A DNA stretch of 64,000 nt from Virgibacillus sp. NKC19-16 (lineage in GTDB: Bacteria > Bacillota > Bacilli > Bacillales > Amphibacillaceae). Numbering within the stretch: the first letter of the stretch is position 1; each line of letters begins with the position of its first letter. The stretch covers positions 3,034,001 to 3,098,000 of the forward strand of contig NZ_CP074373.1 of NCBI RefSeq assembly GCF_021560035.1, read 5' to 3'. Both the position numbers and the translations under genes were made by a program. The notes under the pieces are model-generated. The model worked only from the letters and a program-made list of their open reading frames with translations, was not told the DNA's origin and ran no database searches. Shown piece by piece: positions 6,557 to 25,561 of the stretch.

Positions 6557-6584
6557 ATTTTATTCCTCCATTTCAATTACTAAT

Positions 6585-7751: not shown

Positions 7752-7849
7752 AAAACCACCTCATTATTTTTACTATTCATCAACAGATATCAATAAATAG
7801 TATTTAATTTTTGTTATTTATTTCAATTACACCGATTTATCATTAACAG

Positions 7850-8232: not shown

Positions 8233-8242
8233 CGGCTACTTC

Positions 8243-9214
8243 TTATTTTCGCTTTTGAAATACAACAGCAATAATAATAACTAAACCTGTTACAAATCCT
8301 TGAAGGTATGGAGATACATTTACTAAATTCATCATGTTATTTAAAATACCTAGTATCAGTACACCAAAAATCGTACCGACCACTTTCCCACGGCCTCCGG
8401 TCATACGCGTACCACCAATGATTACGGCAGCAATGGCATCCAATTCATAAAGTTGCCCGGAGCTTGAAGAAGAAATCGAATTTAGACGGGATGTCTCAAT
8501 AATCGCTGCAACACTTACAAGTATTCCCGCGAGGGTATACACGGCAATCTTTATTCGATCCACACGAATTCCTGATAAAAGCGCACCTTTTTCATTGCTG
8601 CCAATCGCATACACATAACGCCCAAAACGCGTTTGATGCAATAATACAAAAACAATTACCGCCATTATCGCAAAAATAATAATTGGAGAGTTAATTGCCC
8701 CTATACTGCTGTTTGAAATGGAACTAAATCCATCTACTTCACCAGAGATACTGCCACCATCTGTTGCATATAATGCAATCGAACGCGCAGCAGACATCAT
8801 CCCCAACGTGGCAATAAATGCAGCAATCTTTAATTTTGCGACCATAAATCCATTAAGAAAACCTACAAATGCTCCAACAGCTAAAGCCGCTATAATCGCA
8901 ATAAAAATGCTCCCTGAAGCATTTAAAACGATTACCGTAAAAACACCCACCAAAGCCAGCACAGATCCTACGGACAAATCAATGCCTCCTGATAGCATTA
9001 CTATCGTCATCCCTAAAGCTACGACGCCAATAATTGAGACTTGCATTAAGATATTCATCAAATTACTAAGTTCTAAAAATCTTGGACTTAAAATAGATGA
9101 AACAATAAATAGAATCAAGAATGCAATAATAACGCTGTATTCCGTCCAAATCCATGAAATGTAACTATTCGATCTTGAAGACTTTTTAGCGGGTTCTAAT
9201 TCTGGGTTTGCCAT
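8243..9214 (-). CDS. Ribose/inositol-type ABC transporter permease (RbsC-like)
   Basis: A 323-residue membrane protein with about eight to ten hydrophobic segments and RbsC-family blocks: GMTIVMLSGGIDLSVGSVLA, the cytoplasmic-loop sequence AIGSNEKGALLSGIRVDRIK, and GGTRMTGGRGKVVGTIFG. It forms the channel of a CUT2-type importer. ATG at 9214 is preceded by AAAGGAGGG. It is the third transport gene after a binding protein and a double ATPase. The sipW relic begins about 10 bp after its stop, so this stop marks a recombination junction. Confidence 0.92.
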   Translation of the reverse strand: MANPELEPAKKSSRSNSYISWIWTEYSVIIAFLILFIVSSILSPRFLELSNLMNILMQVSIIGVVALGMTIVMLSGGIDLSVGSVLALVGVFTVIVLNASGSIFIAIIAALAVGAFVGFLNGFMVAKLKIAAFIATLGMMSAARSIALYATDGGSISGEVDGFSSISNSSIGAINSPIIIFAIMAVIVFVLLHQTRFGRYVYAIGSNEKGALLSGIRVDRIKIAVYTLAGILVSVAAIIETSRLNSISSSSSGQLYELDAIAAVIIGGTRMTGGRGKVVGTIFGVLILGILNNMMNLVNVSPYLQGFVTGLVIIIAVVFQKRK

Positions 9215-9423
9215 GTTATCCCTCCTTTATATTATGTTTAGACCTATTTTTTAGGTCTTTAAACGCTAGATTTGTACCTTGAAAATAAGATATTTGCTCA
9301 CCCTTCATTTAAAACTTTGCAGTTGATTTTTTATTTGCTAAAAAAAACCAAATTCATCACCAGAGAGGCGAGAAAAAATTAGGGTAGGCTTAGTTGCCTA
9401 TTGCTTTTTTAGTAACGCTACCT

Positions 9424-10959
9424 TCAAGGGATTGGAATTTTTGATAATTCATCTTGAAATAATACATCTGCTCTTTTTGATCCTGTTGCATAACTCATGA
9501 TCTCATCATCCGTAGCTTCTTCACCTTGAAATTGGGCGGTTATTTCTCCTTTGTACATGACATAAATGCTATGGCATACTTTTCGTACTTCCGATGATTC
9601 CGACGATAAAATAATCACGGATTTCCCTTGTCTAGCCAATGAAACAATATGCTGTAAGATTTCACGTTTAGCCCCAACATCAATGCCCTGAGTTGGATTA
9701 TCAAAAATAATAATATCTGTATTAACTTCAAGCCATTTGGCAATAACTACTTTTTGTTGGTTTCCACCGCTTAATTTATCAATGGTATTTTTAGGATTGT
9801 GTAATTTTATATTAAGTTTTTGTTTGTAAAAATCGAATCTCTTCCTTTCGATGCTACTTTGAATAAATCCTGCCTTTTCAAAATGATTTATCGATGAAAG
9901 ACTCATATTTTGAATAACGTTAAGATCTTTAATGATCGCATTCTCCCTACGATTTTTGGGAACAAGTCCGATTCCTGCTTCTAATGCTTGTTTGGGATGT
10001 TTAATGTGTACAACCCGTTCATTAATTTTGATTTGCCCTTTGTATTTTTTTCGATAACCAAACAAACTTTCAAATAGCTCAGTTCGTCCATCACCCGCTA
10101 ACCCTGTAAACCCAGCAATTTCTCCTTTCCGTACGGTAAAATTTATATCCTTAAAAAGGCCTTGGGACGTTAGATTTTTAACTTCTAATGCAACGTCTCC
10201 AAATGTATAATAATCTGTTAAGCGGTCTTCAGAAATCGATTTACCCACCATCAGCTTCGTGATGTCATCCAGATTTTGATGTTCCAAACTGTTGGTTCCT
10301 ACTACTTTTCCATCGCGTAACACGGTGTAGCGGTCACACACTTCCTGGATCTCCTTTAATTTATGGGAGATATAAATGAAGGACACGCCTGCATGTTTAA
10401 GGTTTTTCATTACTCCAAATAACCGATCAATCTCGTGCTCCGTTAAGGAGGTCGTTGGCTCGTCCATAATAATCAGCCTGGATTTATGTAGGAGCGCCCT
10501 TGCAATTTCAATCATTTGTTTATATGAAGCGTCCAAATCACGTACATACGCCTTTGGGTTAACATCAAAACCTAATTCAGCTAATATTTTTCGTGTTTCG
10601 TCACACATTTCCTCTACTTTTAAAAATCCAAACGCATTTCTAAGTTCAGTACCTAAATACATATTTTCATATACGCGCAGATCGGAAACGACATTGAGTT
10701 CTTGGTGGATAAAACTGATCCCATGGGATTGGGAGACTCTTGGATTTGCCATTTTAACAGTATTCCCATTTAAAACGATGTCCCCTTCCTCAGGTTGATG
10801 AACCCCACCCAGTATGTTCATCAAGGTGGATTTACCTGCTCCGTTCTCTCCTAGCAATGCATGAATTTCTCCCTGTTCTACGTCGACAGAGACATTTTTC
10901 AGCACTGGCACATCATTGAAAGATTTATAGATATTCTCCATTGACAACAAAGACGACAT
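9424..10959 (-). CDS. Ribose/inositol-type ABC transporter ATP-binding protein (RbsA-like)
   Basis: About 511 residues with two ABC domains. The first half has an intact Walker A (LLGENGAGKST), a D-loop region LIIMDEPTTSL and a degenerate signature. The second has a degenerate Walker A (GLAGDGRTEL), as is usual in RbsA/MglA, and a good signature LSGGNQQKVV with FDNPTQGID. The start is taken at 10959 because AAAGGG lies 8 bases before this ATG; an ATG three codons upstream is too close. It energises the CUT2 importer with the permease and binding protein on either side. About 210 bp separates it from the permease gene. Confidence 0.92.
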   Translation of the reverse strand: MSSLLSMENIYKSFNDVPVLKNVSVDVEQGEIHALLGENGAGKSTLMNILGGVHQPEEGDIVLNGNTVKMANPRVSQSHGISFIHQELNVVSDLRVYENMYLGTELRNAFGFLKVEEMCDETRKILAELGFDVNPKAYVRDLDASYKQMIEIARALLHKSRLIIMDEPTTSLTEHEIDRLFGVMKNLKHAGVSFIYISHKLKEIQEVCDRYTVLRDGKVVGTNSLEHQNLDDITKLMVGKSISEDRLTDYYTFGDVALEVKNLTSQGLFKDINFTVRKGEIAGFTGLAGDGRTELFESLFGYRKKYKGQIKINERVVHIKHPKQALEAGIGLVPKNRRENAIIKDLNVIQNMSLSSINHFEKAGFIQSSIERKRFDFYKQKLNIKLHNPKNTIDKLSGGNQQKVVIAKWLEVNTDIIIFDNPTQGIDVGAKREILQHIVSLARQGKSVIILSSESSEVRKVCHSIYVMYKGEITAQFQGEEATDDEIMSYATGSKRADVLFQDELSKIPIP

Positions 10960-10987
10960 TTCATTCACCCTTTCGATCAGTCAAAAA

Positions 10988-11023
10988 GGAAATACAACAC
11001 CTTCTTCAATCGATTGTATTCCC
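10988..11023 (-). promoter_or_regulatory. Hairpin between binding-protein and ATPase genes
   Basis: GGGAATACAA and TTGTATTTCC form an inverted repeat of about 10 bp around a 16-base loop in the 84-bp gap. It has no strong U-run. Such intercistronic hairpins commonly stabilise the upstream binding-protein message, giving more binding protein than transporter (inference). Confidence 0.5.
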
Positions 11024-11043
11024 TTAACGTAGACTGAACTTCT

Positions 11044-12012
11044 TTAGAATAAAGAATCTGGATCGTAATATTCATCAACATTTTCATTCGTCACTTCGGT
11101 TGCTTCCAGAAGCACTTCTTCCTCCTCCGGTTCTTCCCCTTGGGCTAGATCTGCAGCAATCCGAATTCCTTCTACACTCATTGAAGGAGGATACAAGAAG
11201 GTAGCTGTAATCAAGCTATCATCCTGAATATGTTCATAAACCTCTGTTCCTCCACCTGCTCCAGTGATAAATTGAATATCTTCTCGCCCTGCCTCTTCTA
11301 TGGCTTGCAATACACCTAAGGCCATACCGTCGTCTTGGGTATAGACAGCATCAATTTCATCTTGCGCTGTTAAAATGTTTTGCATTACATCTAATGAAGT
11401 CTCCGTTGAGAAATCTCCATCTTGGGAAGCGACCACTTCAATACCATCCTCGCCTTCAATCGCTTCTTGAAAGCCAGCGCTACGTTGCTCAGTTACCGAA
11501 TTAGGTGGCCCCGTGATTTCTACAATATTTCCCTCACCATCTAATTGTTCAATTAGATATTGACCAGCATTGCGACCAATTCCTTCATTGTCACCTGTCA
11601 CAACAACATCGGCTGCATCGTTTTCTAATTCTCGGTCAACAACAACTAGGGGTATCCCAGCATCTGCAACATTTTGACCCGGTGGTGTTAACGCCGCTGA
11701 CTCGATGGGAAGGAGCACCATCGCATCCACATCTTGAGCTATTAAGTCAGCAACATCGTTCGCTTGCTCATTAGGATCCTCGGCATTGGTCATCACATAT
11801 TCAATGCCTTCATTCTCTGAAATTTCATTTGCCTCCATCTCTGCTTGTTCAATTAATGCACCCATCCAACCGTGTGTGGCGGATGGTAAAGAAATCCCAA
11901 TAGTTAGATTAGAGTCTTCACCTTCACCTCCACCGCTTTCCTCGCTACCTCCACATGCAGATAAAATTATGAATGTGCTCAAAACGATACTTACAAACCA
12001 TATTTTCTTCAT
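11044..12012 (-). CDS. Sugar ABC transporter substrate-binding lipoprotein (RbsB-like)
   Basis: About 322 residues. A lipoprotein signal with lipobox LSAC (Cys near residue 20 from the chosen start) anchors the protein outside the membrane. The mature part is a periplasmic-binding-protein type 1 fold: TIGISLPSATHGWMGAL, DAMVLLPIESAALTP, VVVTGDNEGIGRNAGQYL, AVYTQDDGMALGVLQAI. The start at 12012 is preferred because GGGGG lies 8 bases upstream. It is first gene of the transport operon, 110 bp after lacI. The DNEG..R-type pocket fits ribose, inositol or similar sugars but does not identify which one. Confidence 0.92.
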   Translation of the reverse strand: MKKIWFVSIVLSTFIILSACGGSEESGGGEGEDSNLTIGISLPSATHGWMGALIEQAEMEANEISENEGIEYVMTNAEDPNEQANDVADLIAQDVDAMVLLPIESAALTPPGQNVADAGIPLVVVDRELENDAADVVVTGDNEGIGRNAGQYLIEQLDGEGNIVEITGPPNSVTEQRSAGFQEAIEGEDGIEVVASQDGDFSTETSLDVMQNILTAQDEIDAVYTQDDGMALGVLQAIEEAGREDIQFITGAGGGTEVYEHIQDDSLITATFLYPPSMSVEGIRIAADLAQGEEPEEEEVLLEATEVTNENVDEYYDPDSLF

Positions 12013-12122
12013 TAACATTTCCCCCTTTTTTGAATATACTAATTTTTATTCTTTTACAGTTTACAACTAAGGGCAGCGATTTATTATTAAAATTTGAATG
12101 CTAACCTTAGTTATTTTTATCC

Positions 12123-13106
12123 TTATGTTGATTCACGTATCACTAACTCATGATCCAAAATAATACTTTCAACATTTTCTCCTTTGATTTTTTTGATCAA
12201 CATATCTACTGCAAGTGTGCCCATTTTATACATTGGTTGAGCAATGGTTGTAAGAGCAGGATTGGTCATATTAGAAAAATTAATTTTATCAAAGCCGACC
12301 ACTGCGATATCATCCGGCACATGTAAACCTTGTGCATGAATTTCTTTTAATGCACCAATCGCCAATAAATCAGATACAGCAAATATTGCCGTTGGCGGAT
12401 CGTTTAACTTTAAGATTCTTTTCACCGTTTGCTGTCCATACTCAAATCCTAAGTTATCGGTATGGTAGATGTACTCCTTTCTGACAGCAATCCCTTGCTC
12501 TTCTAAGGCTCTTTGATATCCTTTATTCCGTTGTCGAGTATAAAGGTATTTCTTATTTGAATTTATTAATGCTATTTTTTCATGTCCGATCTTAATTAAA
12601 TGCTTGACGGCTCTATAAGATGCTGCTTCATTATCAATCGTCACATAAGGAATTTCACCTTCATCTGTGTATTCACTGCATTGTATAATTGGATGGGTTT
12701 CAGCCAGATCCATAAGTGCTTCCATATTTACAGCCGGATCCATCGAAATAATTCCATCAGCCATTTTTGTCCTTATCAGATCAAAATAAATATTTTCCCT
12801 CTCTGGATTCGAATCTGTTTCACATAACAGAATATTATAATTGGAACTGATGGCAATGCTTTCAATCCCTTTAATGATATCGAAATAAAACGGATTAGAA
12901 ATATCAGGAATAAGGACTAAAAGCAATCGACTTTCAGATTTTCTTAGGTTTCTGCCAAGCATACTCGGCTTATAATCCAATTTTTGAATAGCTTCTTCTA
13001 CTTTTAATTTTGTTTTCGCCGTAACCAAATTTGGTTCATGTAACACGCGTGAGATTGTTGCTACAGATACACCTGCCTCTTTTGCAACCTGTTGAATGTT
13101 TACCAT
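12123..13106 (-). CDS. LacI-family transcriptional regulator
   Basis: A 327-residue repressor with an N-terminal helix-turn-helix (NIQQVAKEAGVSVATISRVL) and hinge helix, then a periplasmic-binding-like sensor domain (LVLIPDISNPFYFDIIKGIE, FAVSDLLAIGALKEIHAQG, VVGFDKINFSN). It lies directly upstream of, and in the same direction as, the ABC importer and probably controls it. A 14-bp perfect palindrome of LacI operator type sits 34 bp upstream of its start, suggesting autoregulation. The effector is presumably a sugar or inositol derivative. Confidence 0.92.
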   Translation of the reverse strand: MVNIQQVAKEAGVSVATISRVLHEPNLVTAKTKLKVEEAIQKLDYKPSMLGRNLRKSESRLLLVLIPDISNPFYFDIIKGIESIAISSNYNILLCETDSNPERENIYFDLIRTKMADGIISMDPAVNMEALMDLAETHPIIQCSEYTDEGEIPYVTIDNEAASYRAVKHLIKIGHEKIALINSNKKYLYTRQRNKGYQRALEEQGIAVRKEYIYHTDNLGFEYGQQTVKRILKLNDPPTAIFAVSDLLAIGALKEIHAQGLHVPDDIAVVGFDKINFSNMTNPALTTIAQPMYKMGTLAVDMLIKKIKGENVESIILDHELVIREST

Positions 13107-13266: not shown

Positions 13267-13737
13267 CTAACTATGATCATGCCCTCCACCGAATTGAAAG
13301 TGATCAAAAAAATCCATATAGTATTCTTCAGGATGCTCTCCTTCCATATACGCAATTTCCCATCCGTCATTGAAATAAGTAATATAAGGAAATTCATTCA
13401 CGTCAACGACTTCACTACCTATTGGATATTTATCAACATTCAAGGCTTTAATAGATATATCCATTTGTTCCGCTAACGGAAGAAAAACCTTGCTCATTTT
13501 CTGACACTGCTCACACCCGGATTCAAACATATATATAAAAGAACCATCAGTATCTTCTGTTAGTTGAATAAATTCTTCTTCCACTTCTTGTTCAGATCCT
13601 GTTAATTCATGGTCTGGATATTGAAGGGACTCTCCTTGTTGATTTATAATCCATCCGGCAAGAATCACCCCAAAACCTAGAATAATTAAACCAAATAAAA
13701 GCATTGATGAATGTTTACGATACCCGTTCCAATCCAT
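13267..13737 (-). CDS. Membrane-anchored thioredoxin-fold protein
   Basis: About 156 residues. An N-terminal transmembrane helix (LLFGLIILGFGVILAGWII) is followed by an acidic region and a thioredoxin-like fold with active-site-like SGCEQCQK. The CEQC dithiol suggests a redox or thiol-relay role on the outside of the membrane. A cis-Pro-like segment (NEFPYITYF) follows. The C-terminus is His-rich (GGGHDHS). The start at 13737 is chosen because GGGGGAG lies 7 bases upstream; longer starts lack a ribosome site. It stands alone between lacI and a structured noncoding stretch. Partner proteins are unknown. Confidence 0.72.
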   Translation of the reverse strand: MDWNGYRKHSSMLLFGLIILGFGVILAGWIINQQGESLQYPDHELTGSEQEVEEEFIQLTEDTDGSFIYMFESGCEQCQKMSKVFLPLAEQMDISIKALNVDKYPIGSEVVDVNEFPYITYFNDGWEIAYMEGEHPEEYYMDFFDHFQFGGGHDHS

Positions 13738-13843
13738 CCATTCACTCCCCCGTACTAAAATATCTTTAAATATATGACAAGGGTTAAATCCTTGCATATC
13801 AGTAATAGTTGAATAATGAATCGATAATAAGTTTAACCCATGC

Positions 13844-14190
13844 GGATCAAACCTTCTCTTTTGATCCCTTAACTAGCCCACAGCCGTAGCAGGAATGACA
13901 TCAATTGGGTGCTAATCCCTGACAAAATGGGCGTTGCAACTGTTTGATAGGATCCGTAGAATTACTAGATAATATCCCTTATATAAAGGGAAAACGCAAT
14001 CCCTCCTTGTTTGCATCTACGCGTGACTTCTTTTTAAGACTGCTCCCCTTCCTTAACCGGTACACTTACTAACGCCCAGCTTGTCCCTTCGAGTTATAGT
14101 ATCAGCAAGGTTGAACTGGTTAAGGGTCAGGGATTCCTATATATGGGAGTACTGATTAGATTGAAAGACATTTTACAGCAGTCTTTTTTT
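13844..14190. repeat. Noncoding element with nested inverted repeats
   Basis: No convincing gene lies between 13738 and 14198. The stretch holds several nested complementary pairs: GGATCAAA/TTTGATCC (13844-13867), AATCCCTGAC (13914-13923) with GTCAGGGATT (14126-14135), CCTTAACCGGT (14051-14061) with ACTGGTTAAGG (14115-14125), and AAGACTGCT (14036-14044) with AGCAGTCTT (14177-14185). A run of seven T follows the last arm on the plus strand. It could be a structured RNA ending in a terminator, or the ends of a small non-autonomous mobile element. I do not recognise a known family. Confidence 0.5.
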
Positions 14191-14198
14191 GTACTAAA

Positions 14199-15365
14199 TT
14201 AAGTATTTGTAAAATCCAACAACTGTTGATATTGTTCATCCAAGGCATACTCATCTTCTTGATACGGTGATTTAAAAAACAAAGACAAGTGTTTCTGCAC
14301 TCCTATAAGTTTCAATCGTAAGGCATGATCCATAAATCGTACCAAATCAATAATGAGTGGGGCAGCTAGTGTGGCATCTGAACCTAGCCAATTTACTTTC
14401 ATACTCATTTGTTCTCCCAACCAACCTTCGAAATCAATCGTATCCCAAGCCTCTTTGCGATCACCGCGAACGGGAAAGTAATCAATGCGAACTAGATGGT
14501 CAAAATCACTATAACCAAGAATATGTTCCAAACCATTTTCTTTCGAATCAATTTTCGTAACAGAATGTTGAGGGTCATTTAATACTTTTCCATCTTCATT
14601 ACCAAGGATGTTTGTACTATACCAGCCTTTTATTTTTAAACCTCTCATTTTAAACATTTTGCCTAGTACGTGCTTGTATAATGTTTGTCCCGTCCGGCCA
14701 TCTTTTCCAGCCACGGGAACATGTTTCTTCTCGGCTAGCTCCTGTAATGCAGGGATTTCAGCTGTTATGCTAGGAGTGAAATTCACATAGGCACATCCAG
14801 TTTTCAATGCAGCGTAAGCGTATAACATTCCAGAACGAATATCCTTCGAATCGGACTTCAATCCGTCTTCAAAATTGTTTAGGTTTTCATATAACGGTAA
14901 GGTTTCTACATATTTTTCCGTTGCGGTTGCATTGACGACTACCACCCTATTAACGTCATGTTCTTGTTTAAATTGTTCAATTTTTTCCGAAATATTTCGG
15001 ATTTCTTCTAATAGTGAAGAGGGACCACTCTGCAACGAATATACATTTTTAATGTGGTCATCTACGTTGGATGAAGCCCCACCCCAAACAGGAACATTAT
15101 CTAACTCCTCCCTTATTTCTTCTAGTATAGAAGGCGAGACAACCTCTTGCTTCCTAGCCATTTCTACTAATGATTTTTTTCGAATATCCCAGCCTCCAAA
15201 TACTAAATTGTCCATGGGAACCATATTTAGTGGATCAAAATCAGAGTCATTTGATATCATTCCTCTTTCAGGGAGTAAACCCCGGTTGATTGCAATTACA
15301 CCTGTTATTGCGTTTATTGAAACAGTACCCAAAACACCAACAATAAGAACTCCTGTTTTTTCCAT
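14199..15365 (-). CDS. Inositol-3-phosphate synthase family protein
   Basis: A 388-residue protein that by family converts glucose 6-phosphate to 1L-myo-inositol 1-phosphate using NAD. The N-terminal NAD region (GVLIVGVLGTVSINAITG) and the family core are present: GKDGRTGQTLYKHVLGKMF, KGWYSTNILGNEDGKVLNDP, and LIIDLVRFMDHALR with the catalytic-type Lys region before it. The length is typical of bacterial enzymes. The ATG has AAAGGGG upstream, and the gene starts 28 bp after the phosphodiesterase gene. It is last in the six-gene operon, where it may supply an inositol head group to the prenyltransferase step (inference). Confidence 0.85.
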   Translation of the reverse strand: MEKTGVLIVGVLGTVSINAITGVIAINRGLLPERGMISNDSDFDPLNMVPMDNLVFGGWDIRKKSLVEMARKQEVVSPSILEEIREELDNVPVWGGASSNVDDHIKNVYSLQSGPSSLLEEIRNISEKIEQFKQEHDVNRVVVVNATATEKYVETLPLYENLNNFEDGLKSDSKDIRSGMLYAYAALKTGCAYVNFTPSITAEIPALQELAEKKHVPVAGKDGRTGQTLYKHVLGKMFKMRGLKIKGWYSTNILGNEDGKVLNDPQHSVTKIDSKENGLEHILGYSDFDHLVRIDYFPVRGDRKEAWDTIDFEGWLGEQMSMKVNWLGSDATLAAPLIIDLVRFMDHALRLKLIGVQKHLSLFFKSPYQEDEYALDEQYQQLLDFTNT

Positions 15366-15393
15366 AACGCTACTTCCCCTTTCCTCGCTAAAT

Positions 15394-16755
15394 TCATGAA
15401 TGAATCGATTTTTCTGACTTTTGTAGGGATAGCCTCAGCAAAAGATCATGAACTTCAGAAGCTTCTAACTGGGATGGTAAATTAACATCTTCGCCAGTAA
15501 CGATTAATGAAACTAAATCTTCTTCACTACGTGGCGGCAAACCGTGTGATCCCCTGATCTTTTCCGTATCTAGAGGAATTTTTTTTGTGTCCATGTCAAC
15601 AAATAATTCTACAGGGTCATAACCAGGCTTTCGGTGAATATCTACCGTATGAGCAAATTCAGGAGCTCGTTCATTGTTTAACCACCAGTAATACACAAAC
15701 CAACTATCTGATTCTGCAATCGCGATTAATTCACCGGAGCGTTCATGGTCAATATGATGAGCCCTTTTTTCCTCTTCCCCCCATACTTCCGCGATACCCG
15801 GAGTGTCCTCTAATAACTTTTTAACAGAATGTATATCTTCTTCATGGGGGATATAGACATGAGCTAATTGATGATCTGCCATAGCAAAAGCACGGCACAT
15901 TTCCAGGTCAAGGAAATCCATATCTTGTACCTCTTTAACCGACACATACCCATTTTCATTTAATATTTGGTTAATATGAATTGGACGGTGTACAGGTCTA
16001 AATGCATATTCTGATAAAATAACAAGTTGAGTGTCTTCTTTAAGATTTCGTTCCTCAAGATCTTCCACGAATTCTCCAACTACTCTATCCAATTCACGTA
16101 CAGATTGTCGCGCTTGCTCACTATCAGGCCCATGTCGCTGTGACTGATAATCCATATTTGGTAAATAAACAAGGGACAACCTCGGTTTATATTCTTCCAA
16201 CACATCTACAGCTGCTTTGGCAATCCATTCACTGGATTTAATAGATGCAAGCGGTCCCCAAAAAGAAGATAATTCAAACTCTCCCAATTTCTCTCTTAAT
16301 CTTCCGTATAAATCTCGTGGCTTTGAATCACACCACAAAATCGTATTATCCTCGAGATGAATTGGTGCAGGAGTCACAACATAATCAGCCGTAGATAACT
16401 TGCTAAATTGCCAAAACAAAATAGAAGTTGTCGCTTCAGGATCTTGTTCTTTCAGCTTTTCCCATATTTTTTTCCCTTGCATGGGTATCATCGTTTGGTT
16501 CCACACCGTTATTTCTTTATAATCGCGATCGGGGATACCATTGGCAATAATCCCGTGTTCAGAAGGATTTCCCCCTGTAATATAAGTAGCTTGCATTGTA
16601 CCTGTTACTGCTGGAAACACAGGCTTGACTTTAGCATGCTGTCCTTCTTTCAGCAATTTCTGTATATTAGGAGTTAATTCAGGATCTTCCAATAACTCAG
16701 GGGTTAAACTAATAATATCCAATACAACAACATGTTTTGAATTCAAAAAACTCAT
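15394..16755 (-). CDS. Alkaline phosphatase/nucleotide pyrophosphatase family phosphodiesterase (EboF-like)
   Basis: A 453-residue enzyme of the type I phosphodiesterase/NPP superfamily. Metal and nucleophile motifs are visible: VVVLDIISLTPELL (first Asp), FPAVTGTMQATYITG with the nucleophilic Thr, SLVYLPNMDYQSQRHGPDS, and LVILSEYAFRP where DHG/DxxF would be expected. A later HGLPPRSEE supplies a metal His. There is no signal peptide, so it should act in the cytoplasm. It lies between the UbiA and inositol-phosphate-synthase genes. In Ebo operons of cyanobacteria and other phyla a similar protein is called EboF. The substrate is unknown. Confidence 0.8.
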   Translation of the reverse strand: MSFLNSKHVVVLDIISLTPELLEDPELTPNIQKLLKEGQHAKVKPVFPAVTGTMQATYITGGNPSEHGIIANGIPDRDYKEITVWNQTMIPMQGKKIWEKLKEQDPEATTSILFWQFSKLSTADYVVTPAPIHLEDNTILWCDSKPRDLYGRLREKLGEFELSSFWGPLASIKSSEWIAKAAVDVLEEYKPRLSLVYLPNMDYQSQRHGPDSEQARQSVRELDRVVGEFVEDLEERNLKEDTQLVILSEYAFRPVHRPIHINQILNENGYVSVKEVQDMDFLDLEMCRAFAMADHQLAHVYIPHEEDIHSVKKLLEDTPGIAEVWGEEEKRAHHIDHERSGELIAIAESDSWFVYYWWLNNERAPEFAHTVDIHRKPGYDPVELFVDMDTKKIPLDTEKIRGSHGLPPRSEEDLVSLIVTGEDVNLPSQLEASEVHDLLLRLSLQKSEKSIHS

Positions 16756-16773
16756 CCTTTCTAAAAAATAGAT

Positions 16774-17658
16774 TTACGTAACTGCAAAAATACGGGAAAA
16801 TAGATAACTAAATCCTAAAAAAATGGCTACAGTGCCAAAAGCTAACCATCCACCAAAGATCGAGGCGATAGCTGCATTTAAAAGCGGATAACCAACGATA
16901 CTAGTTCCGACTGCTTTCCGAATACGGTGTGAAATCGGCCTCCTCAAAGCCGGGCCAACGCCTTTAAATGTCCATCCGGCAAAGAGGATAACCGCGATAA
17001 TAGTGGCCATCAAGTGCTCCCCAGCCCCCAATATGGTAATACCAAGTACACATACACATATAACAACTGCCATTATGCGCACCCGAACAGGATGAACCTG
17101 ATCCCCCACTTCTCCTTGAGCCATAAAGGTTACTCCTATGATATAAATAAAACCAAACAAGGAAATCCACCAATATGAAGTAACTTGATCAGATATTATA
17201 CTTACACCTAACAGCAGATTTAAAGCCCGGCAAGTGCCCATAACAATTGGACCGAATACAACATGATGTTTCGCATAATAATCGTATAAAACCACAGCAC
17301 ATACAAGAATTAAAGCGATCGTTAGGCTCATCCAACTAATTAATGCAGCGAATCCTATTCCTGACACCCCGAGGATTAGACTCAAAACAAGTGCCCGCGA
17401 AGGCAAGATTCGTCCGGATGGAATGGGACGTTCGGGTCTCTCTGCCTTATCAGTTTCTAAATCGAAATAATCGTTCAAAACCATACCCATAGCATATAAC
17501 GATATGCTTGCTATAATCAGAAATAAAAAATCAAACGATGTAAAGAGATAAGAAACTGTTCCAACGGCTATCCAAACTCCAGCTGTAATATCAGCCATGG
17601 CAGTAAACAGATTGGGAAGACGAACCAGTTCAAAATAGGAACGAAGACTGCTCATCAT
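16774..17658 (-). CDS. UbiA-family prenyltransferase (EboC-like)
   Basis: A 294-residue polytopic protein with about eight or nine transmembrane segments. The first Asp-rich prenyl-diphosphate motif NDYFDLETDKAERPERP is intact, and PIPSGRI follows as in the family. The second Asp motif is weak (EVGDQVHPVRVR). It should attach a prenyl or other lipid chain to a small acceptor at the membrane. Its start overlaps the stop of the upstream TIM-barrel gene by 4 bp (ATGA), implying translational coupling. In Ebo operons the UbiA protein is EboC. Confidence 0.83.
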   Translation of the reverse strand: MMSSLRSYFELVRLPNLFTAMADITAGVWIAVGTVSYLFTSFDFLFLIIASISLYAMGMVLNDYFDLETDKAERPERPIPSGRILPSRALVLSLILGVSGIGFAALISWMSLTIALILVCAVVLYDYYAKHHVVFGPIVMGTCRALNLLLGVSIISDQVTSYWWISLFGFIYIIGVTFMAQGEVGDQVHPVRVRIMAVVICVCVLGITILGAGEHLMATIIAVILFAGWTFKGVGPALRRPISHRIRKAVGTSIVGYPLLNAAIASIFGGWLAFGTVAIFLGFSYLFSRIFAVT

Positions 17659-18494
17659 TTCGTTTGTAACTGCCCCATGATGGAAGTGATGTAACGATAA
17701 GCTTGAGTAGCAGCTTCAATTGCCTGTTCCTGATAAGGATACAATTCAACGGTTACATACCCCTCGTAACCTGTGTCTTGAATCCTGTTCAACACTTCAG
17801 GAATATTAATGGCTCCTTCTCCCGGTATTAAATGATGGTGAGCACGGTCGGAGGAAATGTCCTCCAAGTGATAATGGCCTGTATAGGGCAAGAGCTTATC
17901 TACTAAGTACGTAGGGTCTTCATTAACACAATAGAAATGACCGATATCAAAGTTTAACGCAATACTCTCGGAAGGAACTTCCTTTTTAAATGCAATAAAT
18001 TGATCGGATGTCTCAATTAGCAAATCTGGTTCTGGTTCCACCAGAATGGTTATACCGGCACGCTCCGCATGTTCAGCCAGTTCCTCCATAGCTTCAATAA
18101 ACACTGTATTCGCCCAATCTCTTTCAACACCGATGAGTTGACCACCAGGTTCTGTGGAAATCGTTTTACATCCCAATTGGGAAGCCAAGTCAATACAATT
18201 ATGAGTATGATCGATCCTTTTTCTCCTCTCCTCTTTTTCAGCTTCAATAAAGGATGGGCGCCAGTTATCCCGAATAGCATATAACATAAAAGCGTTTAAA
18301 TTAGATATTTTCATATTTGTTTTTTGTAATGTTTCTTTAATCGCTTCAATTTTTTTAGAAGTTAAGTCAGGAGGATAAGCATGCGGTGTATCTAGCAAAA
18401 TCTCAATCCCCTCATAGCCGATGTCAGATAAAATTGTAATCGCATCCAAAATATCATAATTTTTAAACCCATTGCTGCTAAAAGCTAATTTCAT
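17655..18494 (-). CDS. Sugar phosphate isomerase/epimerase, TIM barrel (EboE-like candidate)
   Basis: About 279 residues from MKLAFSSNGFKNYD. It is an AP-endonuclease-2-type TIM barrel with candidate metal-site stretches: GYEGIEILLDTPHAYPP, ILVEPEPDLLIE, LNFDIGHFYC, YHLEDISSDRAHHHLIPGEG. It resembles the third TIM-barrel protein at 19303-20166 throughout, so the two are paralogues. The start at 18494 is preferred over an in-frame ATG 72 bases upstream, because it gives a 4-bp ATGA overlap with the TatD gene, has GGGAG upstream, and aligns with the paralogue. The reaction is unknown. Confidence 0.82.
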   Translation of the reverse strand: MKLAFSSNGFKNYDILDAITILSDIGYEGIEILLDTPHAYPPDLTSKKIEAIKETLQKTNMKISNLNAFMLYAIRDNWRPSFIEAEKEERRKRIDHTHNCIDLASQLGCKTISTEPGGQLIGVERDWANTVFIEAMEELAEHAERAGITILVEPEPDLLIETSDQFIAFKKEVPSESIALNFDIGHFYCVNEDPTYLVDKLLPYTGHYHLEDISSDRAHHHLIPGEGAINIPEVLNRIQDTGYEGYVTVELYPYQEQAIEAATQAYRYITSIMGQLQTK

Positions 18495-19306
18495 GAGGTA
18501 ACTCCCTTTCCTTCCTTCAGCTTCAGTTTGCCTGATTGTTTGTAGTATTGAATCGGGTTGTCCCATACCAATCTTTGAATATTCTCTTCAGCATAACCTT
18601 GTTTTAACATCTCATTTGCTGCCTTAGGGACACTGAGGGGATCTGCAGGCCCCCAATCCGCTGCCGTATTGATCATCATACGTTCTGTCCCATAACGATC
18701 CAAAATCTCAATGACACCTTCGATAGAAATTTTTCCAGGATAAATGGTCATGCCGCTCCATCCACCGTATTCCACGGATACGTCAATAGTGTCATGAGTA
18801 TTGTGATCTAGGATCACCTGATTAGGATCAAGGCCTTCTTCCTTTAAAATCTCAACGGTGCGTATGGTTCCTTCTCGTTTGTTTTGATGAGGTGTGTGAA
18901 CCATGACCGGCATGTTTAGATCTTTGGCCAGCCGCAATTGTCTCCTCATGATTTCTTCTTCTTCTTTACTTATAAGATCAAATCCTGTTTCACCAATTGC
19001 CACACAATTATCCCTCTTTAAAAATTCTGGTAGAGCATCAATAACTGCATGGGCCAACTCCAAGTCATTCGCTTCTTTAGGATTCATTCCTAAACAGGCA
19101 TAATGTTCTATCCCATGTTCTCTAGCCCTCTTCGGTTCAAAGGAAAGAACATGTTCAAAATAATCTAGGTGTGACTCAGGATACTGTCTTTTGCTTCCCA
19201 GCCAGAATGAAGGTTCTACAATTGCTCGAACTCCAGCTGTTGCCATATTTTTGTAATCATCTACGGTACGAGAATACACATGAATATGAGGATCAAAATA
19301 TTTCAT
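18491..19306 (-). CDS. TatD-family metal-dependent hydrolase (EboB-like)
   Basis: A 271-residue amidohydrolase-fold protein. The metal motif is FDPHIHVYSRT at the N-terminus, GETGFDL near residue 100 carries the conserved Glu, VMVHTPHQ and LDHNTHDT supply later His ligands, and NTAADWGPADPL the final Asp. Relatives cleave phosphoester or amide bonds; in Ebo operons the TatD protein is EboB. Its first codon overlaps the stop of the upstream TIM-barrel gene by 4 bp, and its own stop overlaps the next start by 4 bp. Confidence 0.85.
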   Translation of the reverse strand: MKYFDPHIHVYSRTVDDYKNMATAGVRAIVEPSFWLGSKRQYPESHLDYFEHVLSFEPKRAREHGIEHYACLGMNPKEANDLELAHAVIDALPEFLKRDNCVAIGETGFDLISKEEEEIMRRQLRLAKDLNMPVMVHTPHQNKREGTIRTVEILKEEGLDPNQVILDHNTHDTIDVSVEYGGWSGMTIYPGKISIEGVIEILDRYGTERMMINTAADWGPADPLSVPKAANEMLKQGYAEENIQRLVWDNPIQYYKQSGKLKLKEGKGVTS

Positions 19307-20166
19307 GATACATTCACTCCTTTTATATTATCAATAATCGGTTTTAAAAACTCTATAGATCTTTGAGTAGCATAGATTGGCTGATGTACATAAGTGTATA
19401 ATTCGATTGTAATAAAACGATCATAATCAATAGACTGTAAGTTTTGTAATATCTCTCTGAAATTAATTGAACCATCACCAGGAATGAGATGATAATGTTT
19501 GTATCCATGGATATCTTCCAAATGGATGTTCCAAATATACGGTTCCATTTTTTTAATTAAATTCTGAACGTTTTCTCCTCCTACCACAGCATGACCTAAA
19601 TCAAGGTTAGCCCCTAATTTATTAGAACCTACTTCTTTAATGATTTGAAGAAGTTCTTCCCCGTTTTCGATCAATAAACCAGGCTCATATTCTATCCCTA
19701 CATTGATATTGTGCTTTTCAGCGTAATCCGTAATATACAGCAATGAATCAGCGAAATATTTAAAAGCTTGAGATGGAGGATTTCCAGGTAAACACATCCC
19801 GCTGGTGATACTTATATTTGAACTACCAAGAGCCACTGCAAGATCAATACACTGCTTGGCATAATCAATACGCTTTTGACGAATTTGAGGTTGGGCATTG
19901 CATAACGATGGTTCAAAGGTAGGTTCACCAGTTGGATCATTAAAAAATCCACAAGCTGTATTTCCATTAATATTAGAAACTTCTAGTTGATAATAATGGA
20001 GTTTTCGTTTGACTTCATCTACCCATAAGGCATTAGAGGTTGGCGGAAAGGCATGAGGCGCATCAGCTAGAATCTCAACGCCATCATATCCATATCTCCC
20101 AATTTCCTCCACAGCCTGAGGCAATGTCATATTTGTAAATGCATTAGTACTAAAAGCCAATTGCAT
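19303..20166 (-). CDS. Sugar phosphate isomerase/epimerase, TIM barrel, first gene of Ebo-like operon
   Basis: About 287 residues; AP-endonuclease-2 TIM barrel with GYDGVEILADAPHAFPP, VGIEYEPGLLIE, GANLDLGHAVVGG and LEDIHGYKHYHLIPGDGS, closely parallel to the paralogue at 17655-18494. The start at 20166 is chosen because GAGGG lies 6 bases upstream; the ATG two codons earlier abuts the ribosome site. It opens a six-gene block with overlaps or gaps under 30 bp. A terminator-like hairpin lies just before its ribosome site. Confidence 0.82.
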   Translation of the reverse strand: MQLAFSTNAFTNMTLPQAVEEIGRYGYDGVEILADAPHAFPPTSNALWVDEVKRKLHYYQLEVSNINGNTACGFFNDPTGEPTFEPSLCNAQPQIRQKRIDYAKQCIDLAVALGSSNISITSGMCLPGNPPSQAFKYFADSLLYITDYAEKHNINVGIEYEPGLLIENGEELLQIIKEVGSNKLGANLDLGHAVVGGENVQNLIKKMEPYIWNIHLEDIHGYKHYHLIPGDGSINFREILQNLQSIDYDRFITIELYTYVHQPIYATQRSIEFLKPIIDNIKGVNVS

Positions 20167-20187
20167 TTTCATCCCTCGTTTTTTTAA

Positions 20188-20243
20188 GAAAAAGAGGACT
20201 AATCATGTATATTTTTTTATATATAATACGTCCTCTTTTTCTT
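20188..20243. terminator. Bidirectional terminator or leader attenuator before the Ebo-like operon
   Basis: AAAAAGAGGAC and GTCCTCTTTTT form an 11-bp stem with an AT-only loop of about 27 bases and T-rich tails on both strands. It can end transcripts of the TasA-like gene at 20405. It also lies only about 15 bp before the ribosome site of the first operon gene, leaving no room for a promoter between, so operon transcripts must read through it or be attenuated. Confidence 0.75.
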
Positions 20244-21055: not shown

Positions 21056-23617
21056 CTATTGCCATTTTTCTACCAATAAATCAGCTTGTGTAGTTAGAGA
21101 TTCAAATGCGCCTTCACTAATCAACTCATTGTCAAACTGATGATCAAGCAAATCCTTAAAGCCTACCATATGCTGTACAACTTTTTCTGCTTCTTCTTGA
21201 TTTTCGTAATGACTTATAGCAGTCAAGTGTGTCATTAGGGCGCGGACTTCCTCATCTGATTCAAATGAACCGTTATCATCTAGACGTTCCACAAGTTTTT
21301 TTATGCCTTCCGCACTGTTTTCGATAGGTTCAACATCATTTTCTTCCTCTGGTGCTTCATCCCCGTCCTCAGCAAATTGTATCCAATTTAAATTTTGGTC
21401 TCCACTATTGAAGTAGATATATACATCATGGAATTCGCCATCGGTTTCCTCTATATTCACCGCGGATTCTAGAGTTACCCAATTTTGCCCATCTCCTGTG
21501 GATGGTTGCGTTACAGACGCTACTGTTTCTCCATCCGGGCTACCCAGACGTACTTCCATATCTATACCTTCCTCACTTGCTACACGGAAATACATATCTT
21601 CAATATCAGCCATATGGATAGTTTCATACACAATCCAATCTCCAAGGTCAACATCGGTAACATTGCTTTGACCGTTTACATCACTTGTAGGTTCAAGGCT
21701 GGCCCCTTCACTATCATTATTTTCTGGATCAATATTTCCAGTTTCATCGAATACCAGAGCTTGTTGACGTTTGTTCTTAAGTTCAACAGTATCCGTAGCT
21801 GTTAAAGCTGGGGCATCCTCCCCACCACTATCTTCTACAGTCAATGCTGCTTCCCACCATACATTGTCACTCATATGATGTGATCCATCCATGGATAGGT
21901 CATAGGTAGCTTCACATCCACTTTGATTTGCCTGAGGGTGACCATGGGTATCGTGTAACAAATTCAGTTGCCATAGAAAATTTTCACAGGAAATCTCTCC
22001 ATCTTCATCATCCCAGGCTTCTGCGGTTAACGTAATTTCTTCACCTTCATTAAAAAACATTCCATCAGAGTGAGAGGTGATTTCAACTTCCGGTGCTGTG
22101 TTACCGACAACAATAGTATCGCTCCAAATATCAATCCTCCCAGTTTCTGTATTTGTTACTGTTAAAGTAACGTGATATTGACCATTTTCTGTATAGGTAT
22201 GCGTTGCATTTACATCGTTACTCGTATTTCCGTCCCCAAACTCCCATTCAAAAGTAATTTCCTGTCCGTCAGGATCATATGAATTTGAGGCATCAAACTC
22301 TACTTCTAATGGAGCATGTCCATCTTCTTCACTTATTTCCCCTTGAGCTACCGGATATTGTATTTCTTCACCATAGTATATTTTTCGAATTCCGGCATTG
22401 TCGTTTGACTCCCACCAATCATCACCGAATTCAGTAATATACAAGGACCCATCTGGACCATAAACGCTTGATGTTGGTAAGTTTAATTCTCCTTGCGGTA
22501 CAATATCCTGCACATCTACGACATTATATTCTTCATCAAGTTCCACAGCTTTTAACCATTCTCGTGAAAAATCATAGGTTAGAAGTTTTCCGTCATGTTC
22601 AGCAGTTAGGCCCCCGGCATTACTTTCTTCATCATAGTTATGATGATAAATTCCTGCCGCTGTAATGGATCTTCCACCGCTACCCCATCGTTCAGTTTCT
22701 GGGTAAGGATACCAAAATACTGATTCAGTGATATCTTCCTCAGCACACTCTTCTTCAAATTCATCGTAGCATTCACCGCCCATAATATACGGCCATCCAT
22801 GGTTTTCCCCACCTTCTCTGACCACTTTCATCACATCATTGTCATCGGTTGGATGGTCAGGGCCAACATCTCCGACCCAAACGTCTCCTGTCTCCTGATC
22901 AATATCCATCTTAAATGGACTACGGAATCCATAAGCATAGATTTCATCCCTAGCATTATCATCATCAACAAAAGGATTGTCTTCAGGTATAGATCCGTCA
23001 GGGTTAATGCGTAAAATTTTCCCCCTTAAATCTTGTAAATTTTGAGCAGTCTCAACTGATTCTACTTGGGGTCCATGTGTTGCTGGGTTATTGTCTCCTA
23101 CTGAAATATATAATTTTCCATCAGGACCAAACTCTAGACCGCCCATTTGATGACAGCATATATCTTCAGACTGAATTTCCAAAAGCACCTCTTCAGAATC
23201 AGAATCAATTGTTCCATTTTCATATGTGAACCTAGAAACATGCTCTAGAAATGTTTCAGGTTCCGTATAAGCTAAATAGATATAACCGTTATCCTCAAAA
23301 TTGGGATCAAGTGCGATGGATTTTAATCCATGTTCACTAGATGTGGTTGTATCAATAGACAGTAATTCATTAACATTACCAGTGGGACTGACTTCATAGA
23401 CTCCCCCTTCAATGCTAATGGCATAAATAATCTCTTCACCAGTGATATCTAAATCAACTGGACGTTCTATATCATCCGTAACGGTTTCTATGACATAATC
23501 GTTATCGTCATTCTCCGTCTCATTAGTTTCTTCCTGATCTGCAAACAATACGGTCGGGATCATCATGAAAATCATAACTATAGCCATTAGTAAAGATCCC
23601 TTAATGGGACGCTTCAT
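21056..23617 (-). CDS. Secreted glucose/sorbosone dehydrogenase-like protein with PKD, CBM6-like and FIMAH-like domains
   Basis: The 853-residue protein has a signal peptide ending near LFADQ. Residues about 40-415 form a soluble-glucose-dehydrogenase-type beta-propeller (LKSIALDPNFEDNGYIYLAY, GGLEFGPDGKLYISVGDNN, LRGKILRINPDGSIP, AYGFRSPFKMDID, VYGPDGSLYITEFGDDWW). A PKD domain follows (PVAQGEISEEDGHAPLEVEF, FEWEFGDGNTS). Next come a second beta domain with a likely CBM6-type module (NVTDVDLGDWIVYETIHMAD), an acidic linker and an 85-residue C-terminal domain ending in LLVEKW. It probably oxidises or binds extracellular sugars. The start has AAAAGGAGG upstream. Confidence 0.88.
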   Translation of the reverse strand: MKRPIKGSLLMAIVMIFMMIPTVLFADQEETNETENDDNDYVIETVTDDIERPVDLDITGEEIIYAISIEGGVYEVSPTGNVNELLSIDTTTSSEHGLKSIALDPNFEDNGYIYLAYTEPETFLEHVSRFTYENGTIDSDSEEVLLEIQSEDICCHQMGGLEFGPDGKLYISVGDNNPATHGPQVESVETAQNLQDLRGKILRINPDGSIPEDNPFVDDDNARDEIYAYGFRSPFKMDIDQETGDVWVGDVGPDHPTDDNDVMKVVREGGENHGWPYIMGGECYDEFEEECAEEDITESVFWYPYPETERWGSGGRSITAAGIYHHNYDEESNAGGLTAEHDGKLLTYDFSREWLKAVELDEEYNVVDVQDIVPQGELNLPTSSVYGPDGSLYITEFGDDWWESNDNAGIRKIYYGEEIQYPVAQGEISEEDGHAPLEVEFDASNSYDPDGQEITFEWEFGDGNTSNDVNATHTYTENGQYHVTLTVTNTETGRIDIWSDTIVVGNTAPEVEITSHSDGMFFNEGEEITLTAEAWDDEDGEISCENFLWQLNLLHDTHGHPQANQSGCEATYDLSMDGSHHMSDNVWWEAALTVEDSGGEDAPALTATDTVELKNKRQQALVFDETGNIDPENNDSEGASLEPTSDVNGQSNVTDVDLGDWIVYETIHMADIEDMYFRVASEEGIDMEVRLGSPDGETVASVTQPSTGDGQNWVTLESAVNIEETDGEFHDVYIYFNSGDQNLNWIQFAEDGDEAPEEENDVEPIENSAEGIKKLVERLDDNGSFESDEEVRALMTHLTAISHYENQEEAEKVVQHMVGFKDLLDHQFDNELISEGAFESLTTQADLLVEKWQ

Positions 23618-23761
23618 ATCATTTTCCTCCTTTTCTTGAGTTCGAATTGATTTTGTTCCACCATTTAGATAACTACAAATATTACAATTTTATTAAATTT
23701 TATCACCCCCTTTTTACATAGGAGAATTTTTCTTCTACTTCTTTTACTATAAATCTAGGAT

Positions 23762-23804
23762 AAACTCCTCTGTGTCAGCTTAATCACTGCCACAGAAGAA
23801 GTTT
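23762..23804 (-). terminator. Probable terminator after the ThuA gene
   Basis: AAACTTCTTCTGTG and CACAGAGGAGTTT form an imperfect stem of about 12 bp beyond the end of the ThuA reading frame. The T-tract on the minus strand is short, so termination may be weak. Confidence 0.5.
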
Positions 23805-23892
23805 CTATTCACTTAATCATCCCAATTTTGAATTACTGCATCAGATTGAGCCATAAGAACATCAAATGCCCTCTCTGTGATTAAATCATTAT

Positions 23893-24882
23893 CTAATTGA
23901 TGGTTAAGCAAATTCTTGAATCCCCCATGTGTTGGGTGACTTTTGTAGCCTCTTCTTGATTTTCGTAATGATTTACTGCCGTCAAATGAAGTGTCAAGCT
24001 ACGAACGGCCTCATCTGTTTCGAATTCTCCATCTTCTTTAAAGTCCTCCACATGTCCTACCATATTTTCTGCATCCAAGTTTGGCTCAGGGGTTGGTTCA
24101 CTGGCGTCATAATCCGAATCTCCCCAAGCGTATTGCAATCCACCTACTAGATGCTGCTGAAAATCCTCTTTATACCATGTTTCAGGGTGATGCCCCAATG
24201 CTGTATAAAACATTCTACCTTCTCCTATTTCATCAACCCATGCTGCAGGGTGATCTTCATGAGCTTCCCCGTCGACACTAACCATATCCAGACTCATGAG
24301 GATATGTTTGCCGTTATACCGAGGATTATCCTGAAAAAGGTATACTTCTTCTAACTGTGTATGCTGGGAATCCAGGTGTTCAGTTGAAGGATGATCTCCC
24401 TGTTCAATATCATACGTCACTTCATGAACCCAAGGATGTGAATCAAAATAGGCTCCAGTTAATTCACCGTATTCTTCCCATTCATAAAAGGTATCTGTGG
24501 CAGCGTGAACACCAAAAAAACCATTTCCTGATTCAACAAAGTTTATAATATCCTCTTTTTGTTGATCAGAGATCGGAAGTTCTCCGGTTGTATGCACAAA
24601 AGCTAATACATCATAATTTGCCAAGTTTTCCGCGTTTAGCAAACTCACATCTTCCGTGATATCGACTTCAAATCCATGTTCTTCGCCTAACTGGGGCATA
24701 ATCTCATGAGCATCGTCAATTGATGCATGTCGAAATATTTCTGTAGCTGTCACCATTAAAACCTTTTTCACCTCATCATTATCATTACTAGTCTCATCAG
24801 TTTCAGCAAATGTTGTAAACGATATCATAGAGACAACCATAAGAACAGCAGCCAATAAAGAAAATTTCTTGGCAGTTTTCAT
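23893..24882 (-). CDS. Secreted ThuA-domain protein with frameshifted FIMAH-like C-terminus
   Basis: About 329 residues from MKTAKKFSLLA, chosen because GGGGAG lies about 9 bases upstream. A signal peptide ends near TFAET. Residues about 30-270 are a ThuA (trehalose utilisation) class I glutamine amidotransferase-like domain: VLMVTATEIFRHASIDDA, DVLAFVHTTGELPIS, GNGFFGVHAATDTFYEWEEY, GRMFYTALGHHPETW. A repeat shared with the 21056 and 34351 proteins begins after PNLDAEN. At a GGGGG run near 23925 one base appears missing. The other frame continues FKNLLNHQLDNDLITERAF to a stop at 23813, so the intact gene would span 23813-24882. Confidence 0.85.
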   Translation of the reverse strand: MKTAKKFSLLAAVLMVVSMISFTTFAETDETSNDNDEVKKVLMVTATEIFRHASIDDAHEIMPQLGEEHGFEVDITEDVSLLNAENLANYDVLAFVHTTGELPISDQQKEDIINFVESGNGFFGVHAATDTFYEWEEYGELTGAYFDSHPWVHEVTYDIEQGDHPSTEHLDSQHTQLEEVYLFQDNPRYNGKHILMSLDMVSVDGEAHEDHPAAWVDEIGEGRMFYTALGHHPETWYKEDFQQHLVGGLQYAWGDSDYDASEPTPEPNLDAENMVGHVEDFKEDGEFETDEAVRSLTLHLTAVNHYENQEEATKVTQHMGDSRICLTIN

Positions 24883-25561
24883 ATACATTACTCCCCTCTT
24901 CATATTAAATTAACACTTTTACTAACTACTGCTACGAACCTTTTAGAACACTAATTAAATCACCTGCCTTTCCACTGTAAGATACACTCATAAGCAAGAT
25001 CACACCTCCTTTTTATAGATGTAAAGTATTTAATACTTTGTTGCTAAGTTAAGATACTATTCTCCAATAAATGGTTTTATATATTTTCTCGAAAAATAAT
25101 GTCTATTTATTCTATAACGACTATTACAAATGTAAACGATATCATTTATTCTTAAAAAAATAATCGTTTTTTGTTATATGTGACGTTGCTGCATCTACTT
25201 CCCATTAGACAAGATAAAACTGCCTATTTTTACAAATATTGTTAAATTATTAATAATTTTGTAACCTGTTGAGATATATTGTAATAGGCTAGATTTTCTT
25301 TGTCAATAGTTTTTAAAAAATTCTTTTGATTTATAAATTTATAACAGTATCCATAACTGTCCTCTCCCACAAAAAATAACCATCGGTATAGCAACGATAT
25401 ATTTGTTGTAACGTACATAATGTCCTCTGATGAATTGATATTACACTTATATTGGTTTAGCAGATCAAAAAGGAAAAAAGGTTGCTTCGCGAAGTAATTC
25501 GTAAGTAATAAGAAATCATATGTAGCGATATTTGGTCATTTTCAATCTCTAGGGGGATGTA
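24883..25561. other. AT-rich upstream region of the ThuA gene
   Basis: No gene is seen. This region should hold the promoter for the minus-strand ThuA/dehydrogenase/TasA-like genes, and it carries one very good cre-like site at 25130-25145. It is extremely AT-rich between 25060 and 25340. Confidence 0.5.
25130..25145. promoter_or_regulatory. cre-like (CcpA/LacI-family) operator
   Basis: ATGTAAACGATATCAT matches the cre consensus WTGNNARCGNWWWCAW at every position. It lies about 250 bp upstream of the ThuA-like gene and suggests carbon catabolite control of the secreted sugar-active proteins, or an operator for another LacI-family protein. Confidence 0.6.

Follow-up and report, generated by a model that had tools for sequence, protein, structure and literature searches.

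What could an ebo-type operon make when it carries an inositol phosphate synthase in place of EboD, the sugar-phosphate cyclase of ordinary ebo operons? This question is raised by six open reading frames in a 64,000-nucleotide stretch of the genome of Virgibacillus sp. NKC19-16 (contig NZ_CP074373.1, positions 3,034,001 to 3,098,000; hereafter the window), a salt-tolerant relative of Bacillus. All six lie on the minus strand at window positions 14199-20172 and encode, in order of transcription, a xylose-isomerase-like TIM barrel (TIM1), a TatD-like hydrolase, a second TIM barrel of the same kind (TIM2), a UbiA-superfamily prenyltransferase, an NPP-type phosphodiesterase, and a myo-inositol-3-phosphate synthase (MIPS; the gene and its product are called INO1 here). 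The ebo operons were named in 2016, and an isoprenoid-cyclitol product was proposed at that time for those of the EboD type (PMC5133447). For the window, the best explanation is an ebo-family operon of an INO1 type, in which inositol-3-phosphate replaces the EboD cyclitol and the product would be a prenyl-cyclitol; we give this reading a probability of roughly 0.55.

The six genes are closely packed. ATGA overlaps join TIM1 to TatD (19303-19306), TatD to TIM2 (18491-18494), and TIM2 to UbiA (17655-17658), and gaps of 18 bp and 28 bp separate UbiA from NPP and NPP from INO1, respectively. The Pfam matches of all six proteins exceed the cut-off, and the six co-directional genes with three ATGA overlaps described in the first-pass annotation are borne out. 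TIM1 probably starts at its second ATG (20166), which is kept in a sister species of the genus. In that species (genome G002, locus L034), the six genes occur in unchanged order with 82-94% identity and are followed, as in the window, by a thioredoxin-like gene and a LacI gene. Because the order of the six genes is kept, the arrangement is conserved and not an accident of annotation. No Rfam match to a structured RNA was obtained around the operon, and a promoter scan gave a signal that was not above that of shuffled sequences.

Membership in the Ebo families was examined with NCBI models and with profiles built from 68-70 EboD-type loci. The UbiA protein passes the NCBI EboC model NF035940 (cut-off of 250 bits) and falls below the model of the SCO3242 family, NF045897 (153.5 vs 260 bits); on the EboC profile from EboD-type loci it scores 272 bits, which is under the canonical range and far over background. 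The scores of the TatD-like protein on the EboB profile and of the NPP on the EboF profile are also far over background, compared to 545-610 and 758-856 bits for members, respectively. Judged by these scores, the three proteins are genuine relatives of EboB, EboC, and EboF, which supports the earlier assignment of the locus to the Ebo type. That assignment had also counted the TIM barrels among the Ebo proteins, as EboE, and this part did not stand: TIM2 reaches 36 bits on the NCBI EboE model (cut-off of 250 bits) and 15 bits on the EboE profile (584-653 for members), and the EboE models gave no match to TIM1. The identity of the TatD-like protein as a true TatD DNase or exonuclease was likewise rejected (TIGR00010, 51 vs cut-off of 206 bits). 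EboA and EboD, both reported as absent from the beginning, gave no match among the operon proteins with their respective profiles. The sole EboD-like sequence in the genome is remote and weak (121 bits over 227 residues; operon EboDs reach 580-668 bits on an EboD profile) and is probably AroB of the shikimate pathway.

INO1 is present in one copy in this genome. It matches Archaeoglobus fulgidus MIPS (1u1i) and the inositol-3-phosphate synthase 7nwr at 239-240 bits, and a role as a five-membered cyclitol-phosphate synthase was rejected from the match to 6k96 (61 bits vs 239 bits for true MIPS). Its residues K271, K275, K304, K365, and D330 correspond to K274, K278, K306, K367, and D332 of the A. 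fulgidus enzyme, which we take to be the catalytic residues. By these sequence comparisons, INO1 is a canonical MIPS, an enzyme that converts glucose-6-phosphate to inositol-3-phosphate.

Relatives of the operon were collected by running an EboC alignment against 84,980 species genomes (best 80 loci) and by plasmid searches. In Bacteroidota and Cyanobacteria, ordinary ebo loci comprise the EboABCDEF set and lack INO1. Haloarchaeal plasmids of Halocatena, Natronococcus, and Halobaculum carry TatD, TIM, UbiA, and TIM genes with adjoining INO1 and NPP, and the Halocatena TIM barrels pair one-to-one with those of the window (43.5% identity for TIM1 and 42.8% for TIM2, vs 30-33% for the wrong pairs), TIM1 being the orthologue of the second TIM barrel of the haloarchaeal operon. 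Streptomyces plasmids show the order INO1-UbiA(SCO3242)-TIM-EboA-TatD-EboE-NPP, and INO1 is joined to an EboC-type UbiA in Nonomuraea, Embleya, and Gemmatirosa. Since the same gene set is found in haloarchaea, and INO1 with an EboC-type UbiA in actinomycetes, the class extends beyond Bacillaceae and spans bacteria and archaea. Among 159 genomes of the family, EboC exceeds its cut-off in three, and a close INO1 is confined to two, in both of which it lies inside this EboC operon; among 398 genomes sampled evenly across the phylum, each was found in one, and the other INO1 matches were partial (26-34%). The UbiA of one further genome (G464) was set aside because its short contig holds no ebo partners. 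A metagenome-assembled genome (MAG) labelled Williamsia (L094) has a canonical ABCDEF ebo operon with a UbiA nested in a Bacteroidota clade; the MAG or its contig may be mislabelled, and hence silent on actinomycetes, and a search for SCO3242 over its phylum gave sub-cut-off matches only. Another kind of INO1 cluster was seen in Methylobacterium, Hymenobacter, and Roseomonas (L127, L128, and L131), which combines INO1 with a Gfo/Idh oxidoreductase and a TIM barrel near that of the actinomycete operons, with YcaO annotated in the latter two genera; it may represent an unrelated inositol-derived pathway.

The distribution of INO1 and EboD supports the idea that the one takes the place of the other. 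Among the 106 listed EboC-type loci with TatD or NPP, EboD is present in 84, INO1 in 10, neither in 12, and both in none. When each of the 54 genera is counted once, the corresponding numbers are 41, 8, 5, and 0 (Fisher p=1.2e-6, uncorrected for kinship). This mutual exclusion makes plausible the proposal of the first-pass annotation that INO1 fills the cyclase slot. An EboD adjoining the operon in related genomes would have spoken against that proposal, and the operons of Gracilibacillus, Paenibacillus, and the sister species contain none. A tree of EboC proteins unites the EboD-type UbiAs of Bacteroidota and Cyanobacteria in a single set (support 96) and places the window UbiA outside it, together with those of Gracilibacillus and Paenibacillus (98); several of its deep branches are long and uncertain. 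A tree of INO1 proteins places those of the window and the sister species among INO1s of Bacteroidota and Alphaproteobacteria from outside ebo operons, and the INO1s of the haloarchaeal and actinomycete operons group together on the opposite side (100/99). A single clade of operon INO1s was rejected in the approximately unbiased test (p=2e-7), from which it could be deduced that INO1 entered, or was replaced in, EboC operons at least twice. Of the observations made, this repeated recruitment speaks most clearly for a role of inositol phosphate in the pathway.

In the proposed pathway, INO1 would provide inositol-3-phosphate from glucose-6-phosphate in place of the EboD cyclitol, and the EboC-type UbiA would join a prenyl chain to the inositol polyol or to one of its ring derivatives. 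Modification of the ring would fall to the two IolI/epimerase-like TIM barrels, and removal or cleavage of a phosphate group to the EboF-type NPP; the EboB-type hydrolase may act at some step that we do not assign. The outcome would be a membrane-held prenyl-cyclitol. Firm support from sequence is limited to the first step, the formation of inositol-3-phosphate; what we infer is in which order the steps run, what the prenyl acceptor and the product are, and how the product is used. The prenyltransferase has an intact first Asp motif, NDYFDLETD, with invariant N and D residues, and its nearest solved structure, with either a single sequence or a profile as the query, is digeranylgeranylglyceryl phosphate (DGGGP) synthase (6m31), aromatic UbiA structures matching it far more weakly. 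DGGGP synthase O-prenylates a phosphorylated polyol by placing the prenyl chain onto a hydroxyl, and a phosphorylated inositol is therefore a chemically reasonable acceptor for UbiA. In the NPP, D202, D294, H295, H404, and the putative nucleophile T51 are invariant, the metal site being assigned by motif comparison. The E-D-H-E metal-site set of the xylose-isomerase-like family is present in TIM1 and TIM2. The best fold matches of a predicted TIM2 model, with a predicted local distance difference test score (pLDDT) of 88, are Art22, IolI, a tagatose-epimerase-like protein, and AsbF, and ketose 3-epimerases are also near. Since IolI, an inosose isomerase, and AsbF, a ring dehydratase, act on six-membered carbocycles, this predicted kinship is compatible with, and no proof of, a role of TIM2 on an inositol-derived ring.

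Several observations weigh against this reading. The exclusion count ignores shared ancestry, and the INO1-type loci come mostly from one plasmid collection. MIPS retains the phosphate, which EboD-type cyclases release, and exchanging EboD for INO1 is therefore not chemically equivalent. The draft genome of Gracilibacillus lacisalsi shows TIM1-TatD-TIM2-UbiA-NPP and no INO1, and in two Paenibacillus UbiA-NPP-TatD occurs without a close INO1 or TIM barrels, indicating that INO1 is not obligatory in every EboC-type operon; in Haladaptatus, the gene set lies on a plasmid that has no INO1. Inositol catabolism was considered as the reason for the missing INO1 and rejected, because IolE shows no clean pattern: both Paenibacillus have it, and its matches stay below cut-off in Gracilibacillus, the sister species, and the window genome. 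Both Paenibacillus operons end in an HpaB-type gene related to 4-hydroxyphenylacetate 3-hydroxylase (L044 13137-14669 and L045 13038-14591). The UbiA-NPP-TatD-HpaB set is another ebo variant, one lacking TIM barrels, and its aromatic-hydroxylase-type gene favours an aromatic acceptor. Moreover, Ubi-297, a related EboC, prenylates quinoline acids in vitro (PMC9235831).

The surroundings of the operon are partly conserved (Table 1). The strong hairpin just upstream of the TIM1 ribosome-binding site has a similar but weaker counterpart in the sister species (z -2.3), and it could be the terminator of the upstream camelysin-like gene or a leader attenuator. Downstream, INO1 is separated from the thioredoxin-like gene by a 400-bp non-coding stretch (13798-14198) that matches nothing in Rfam and shows no clear inverted repeats. 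The thioredoxin-like gene also adjoins the operon in the sister species and Gracilibacillus (L034 and L035) and may be linked to it. Further downstream, a TIM barrel, a Gfo/Idh oxidoreductase, an RbsABC-like transporter, and a LacI regulator (5588-13106) make up a sugar-uptake locus, which is also found in part in the sister species and in Gracilibacillus, where no LacI gene was seen. Upstream of the operon, 21056-24903 encodes a secreted GSDH-PKD-CBM6-FIMAH protein and a ThuA-FIMAH protein. GSDH- or ScyD/E-like beta-propellers occur within 10 kb of 6/10 INO1-type, 4/8 neither-type, and 28/72 EboD-type loci, as raw counts with no background rate.

Table 1. Genes of the INO1-type operon and adjacent features, in window positions.
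Feature	Position	Strand	Supporting match or property
TIM1, xylose-isomerase-like TIM barrel	19303..20172	-	AP_endonuc_2 PF01261 133 bits
TatD-like metal-dependent hydrolase, EboB type	18491..19306	-	TatD_DNase Pfam; EboB profile 311 bits
TIM2, second xylose-isomerase-like TIM barrel	17655..18494	-	AP_endonuc_2 PF01261 153 bits
UbiA-superfamily prenyltransferase, EboC family	16774..17658	-	UbiA Pfam; NF035940 297.2 bits
NPP-type phosphodiesterase, EboF type	15394..16755	-	Phosphodiest PF01663 223 bits; EboF profile 471 bits
INO1, myo-inositol-3-phosphate synthase (MIPS)	14199..15365	-	NAD_binding_5 PF07994 192 bits; Inos-1-P_synth PF01658
Strong hairpin just upstream of the TIM1 ribosome-binding site	20186..20243	.	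26-nt arms, -25 kcal/mol, z -8.7
Membrane-anchored thioredoxin-like protein, next gene downstream	13267..13797	-	PF00085 25.8 bits

Four other explanations were compared with the prenyl-cyclitol reading. The product of the operon could be a carrier for the export of another metabolite, in line with the proposal for ebo and scytonemin, and INO1 would then only set the head group of the carrier. The export role of ebo was inferred from Nostoc punctiforme, in which the scytonemin monomer does not reach the periplasm in any of the ebo mutants tested (PMC6282210), and the metabolite-export link drawn in the first-pass annotation goes back to this one cyanobacterial study. Secreted GSDH- or ScyD/E-type beta-propeller genes near many EboC loci would fit such a role, but a periplasm in that sense is lacking in Bacillaceae, and scytonemin genes were not seen. 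The carrier explanation, which we regard as somewhat unlikely, is compatible with a prenyl-cyclitol product and not exclusive of it.

The main rival, an unlikely one in our estimate, is an aromatic prenyl acceptor: inositol from INO1 would be dehydrated by the TIM barrels to a hydroxylated aromatic, or be otherwise used, and the product would be a meroterpenoid quinol. The presence of AsbF, a ring-aromatising dehydratase, among the top fold matches of TIM2 is in line with this, as is the HpaB-type hydroxylase adjoining the operon in both Paenibacillus. Ubi-297 farnesylates 8-hydroxyquinoline-2-carboxylate; however, its substrates were picked out of a panel of compounds tried in vitro, and the operon to which it belongs is of the EboD type (PMC9235831). 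Furthermore, the window operon has no aromatic-ring gene, and its UbiA resembles DGGGP synthase far more than aromatic UbiA enzymes.

It is quite improbable that INO1 is a passenger on the transcript, supplying inositol for another use such as a compatible solute or an inositol lipid. Its place as the last gene, 28 bp apart, and the retention of EboC-type genes without a close INO1 in Gracilibacillus and Paenibacillus would suit a passenger, but INO1, with no fewer than two origins, recurs in EboC operons of haloarchaea, Actinomycetota, Gemmatimonadota, and Bacillaceae, never together with EboD, and no inositol-lipid genes of the Bacteroides INO1 kind adjoin it. Very improbable is the view that the operon belongs to the surrounding sugar-catabolism locus (ThuA, GSDH, Gfo/Idh, RbsABC, and LacI) and degrades a cyclitol or keto-sugar: the same neighbours recur in the sister species and Gracilibacillus, and in part in haloarchaea, but MIPS and a membrane prenyltransferase are biosynthetic enzymes, the EboB, EboC, and EboF types occur in other contexts in ordinary ebo operons, and a strong hairpin lies between the operon and the upstream genes.

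Compared to known systems, the window operon shares with the EboABCDEF operon (Yurchenko et al. 2016, PMC5133447; Nostoc punctiforme, PMC6282210) the EboB, EboC, and EboF types in one co-directional operon, whereas it lacks EboA, EboD, and EboE and has two other TIM barrels and MIPS instead. The haloarchaeal TatD-TIM-UbiA-TIM plus INO1-NPP cluster, for which no literature name was found, is identical in gene content, with one-to-one TIM orthologues, and differs in gene order and INO1 lineage. The actinomycete SCO3242/SCO3243-type cluster likewise has INO1 in place of EboD beside an EboC-type UbiA, TatD, and NPP, but it retains EboA and EboE and has one extra TIM barrel and a UbiA of the sister SCO3242 family; in S. 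coelicolor, the transferase SCO3242 and the myo-inositol phosphate synthase SCO3243 bear consecutive gene numbers (PMC3610822). Ubi-297, from Maribacter, is an EboC member active in a farnesyltransferase assay with magnesium; unlike the window UbiA, it comes from an ebo cluster with eboD and accepted quinolines, and the accessible part of its report does not name cyclitols as substrates (PMC9235831). The inositol-lipid clusters of Bacteroides (INO1, NDP-sugar synthase, and CDP-alcohol phosphatidyltransferase) have an INO1 of the same broad lineage as that of the window, but they use a phosphatidyltransferase and contain no UbiA, TIM barrel, or NPP. In the open literature, with most subscription papers and preprints outside the search, no paper was found on INO1 in an ebo-type operon or on a prenylated inositol product; the arrangement had been called undescribed in Bacillaceae, which agrees with this search, although the class itself is not confined to that family.

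The substrate of EboD is only guessed, whereas the substrate and product of MIPS are known, and the INO1 operons thus provide a defined starting molecule, inositol-3-phosphate. More tentatively, EboC operons of bacteria and archaea might make a new class of lipids, prenyl-inositol ethers (or their phosphates), INO1 having replaced EboD independently in several lineages, and the whole ebo family, the cyanobacterial export cluster included, might build prenylated cyclitol carriers whose ring depends on the lineage. If EboC does prenylate inositol-3-phosphate, bacteria and archaea would possess a prenylated cyclitol lipid of a new kind, and there would be a chemical basis for the export role in cyanobacteria.

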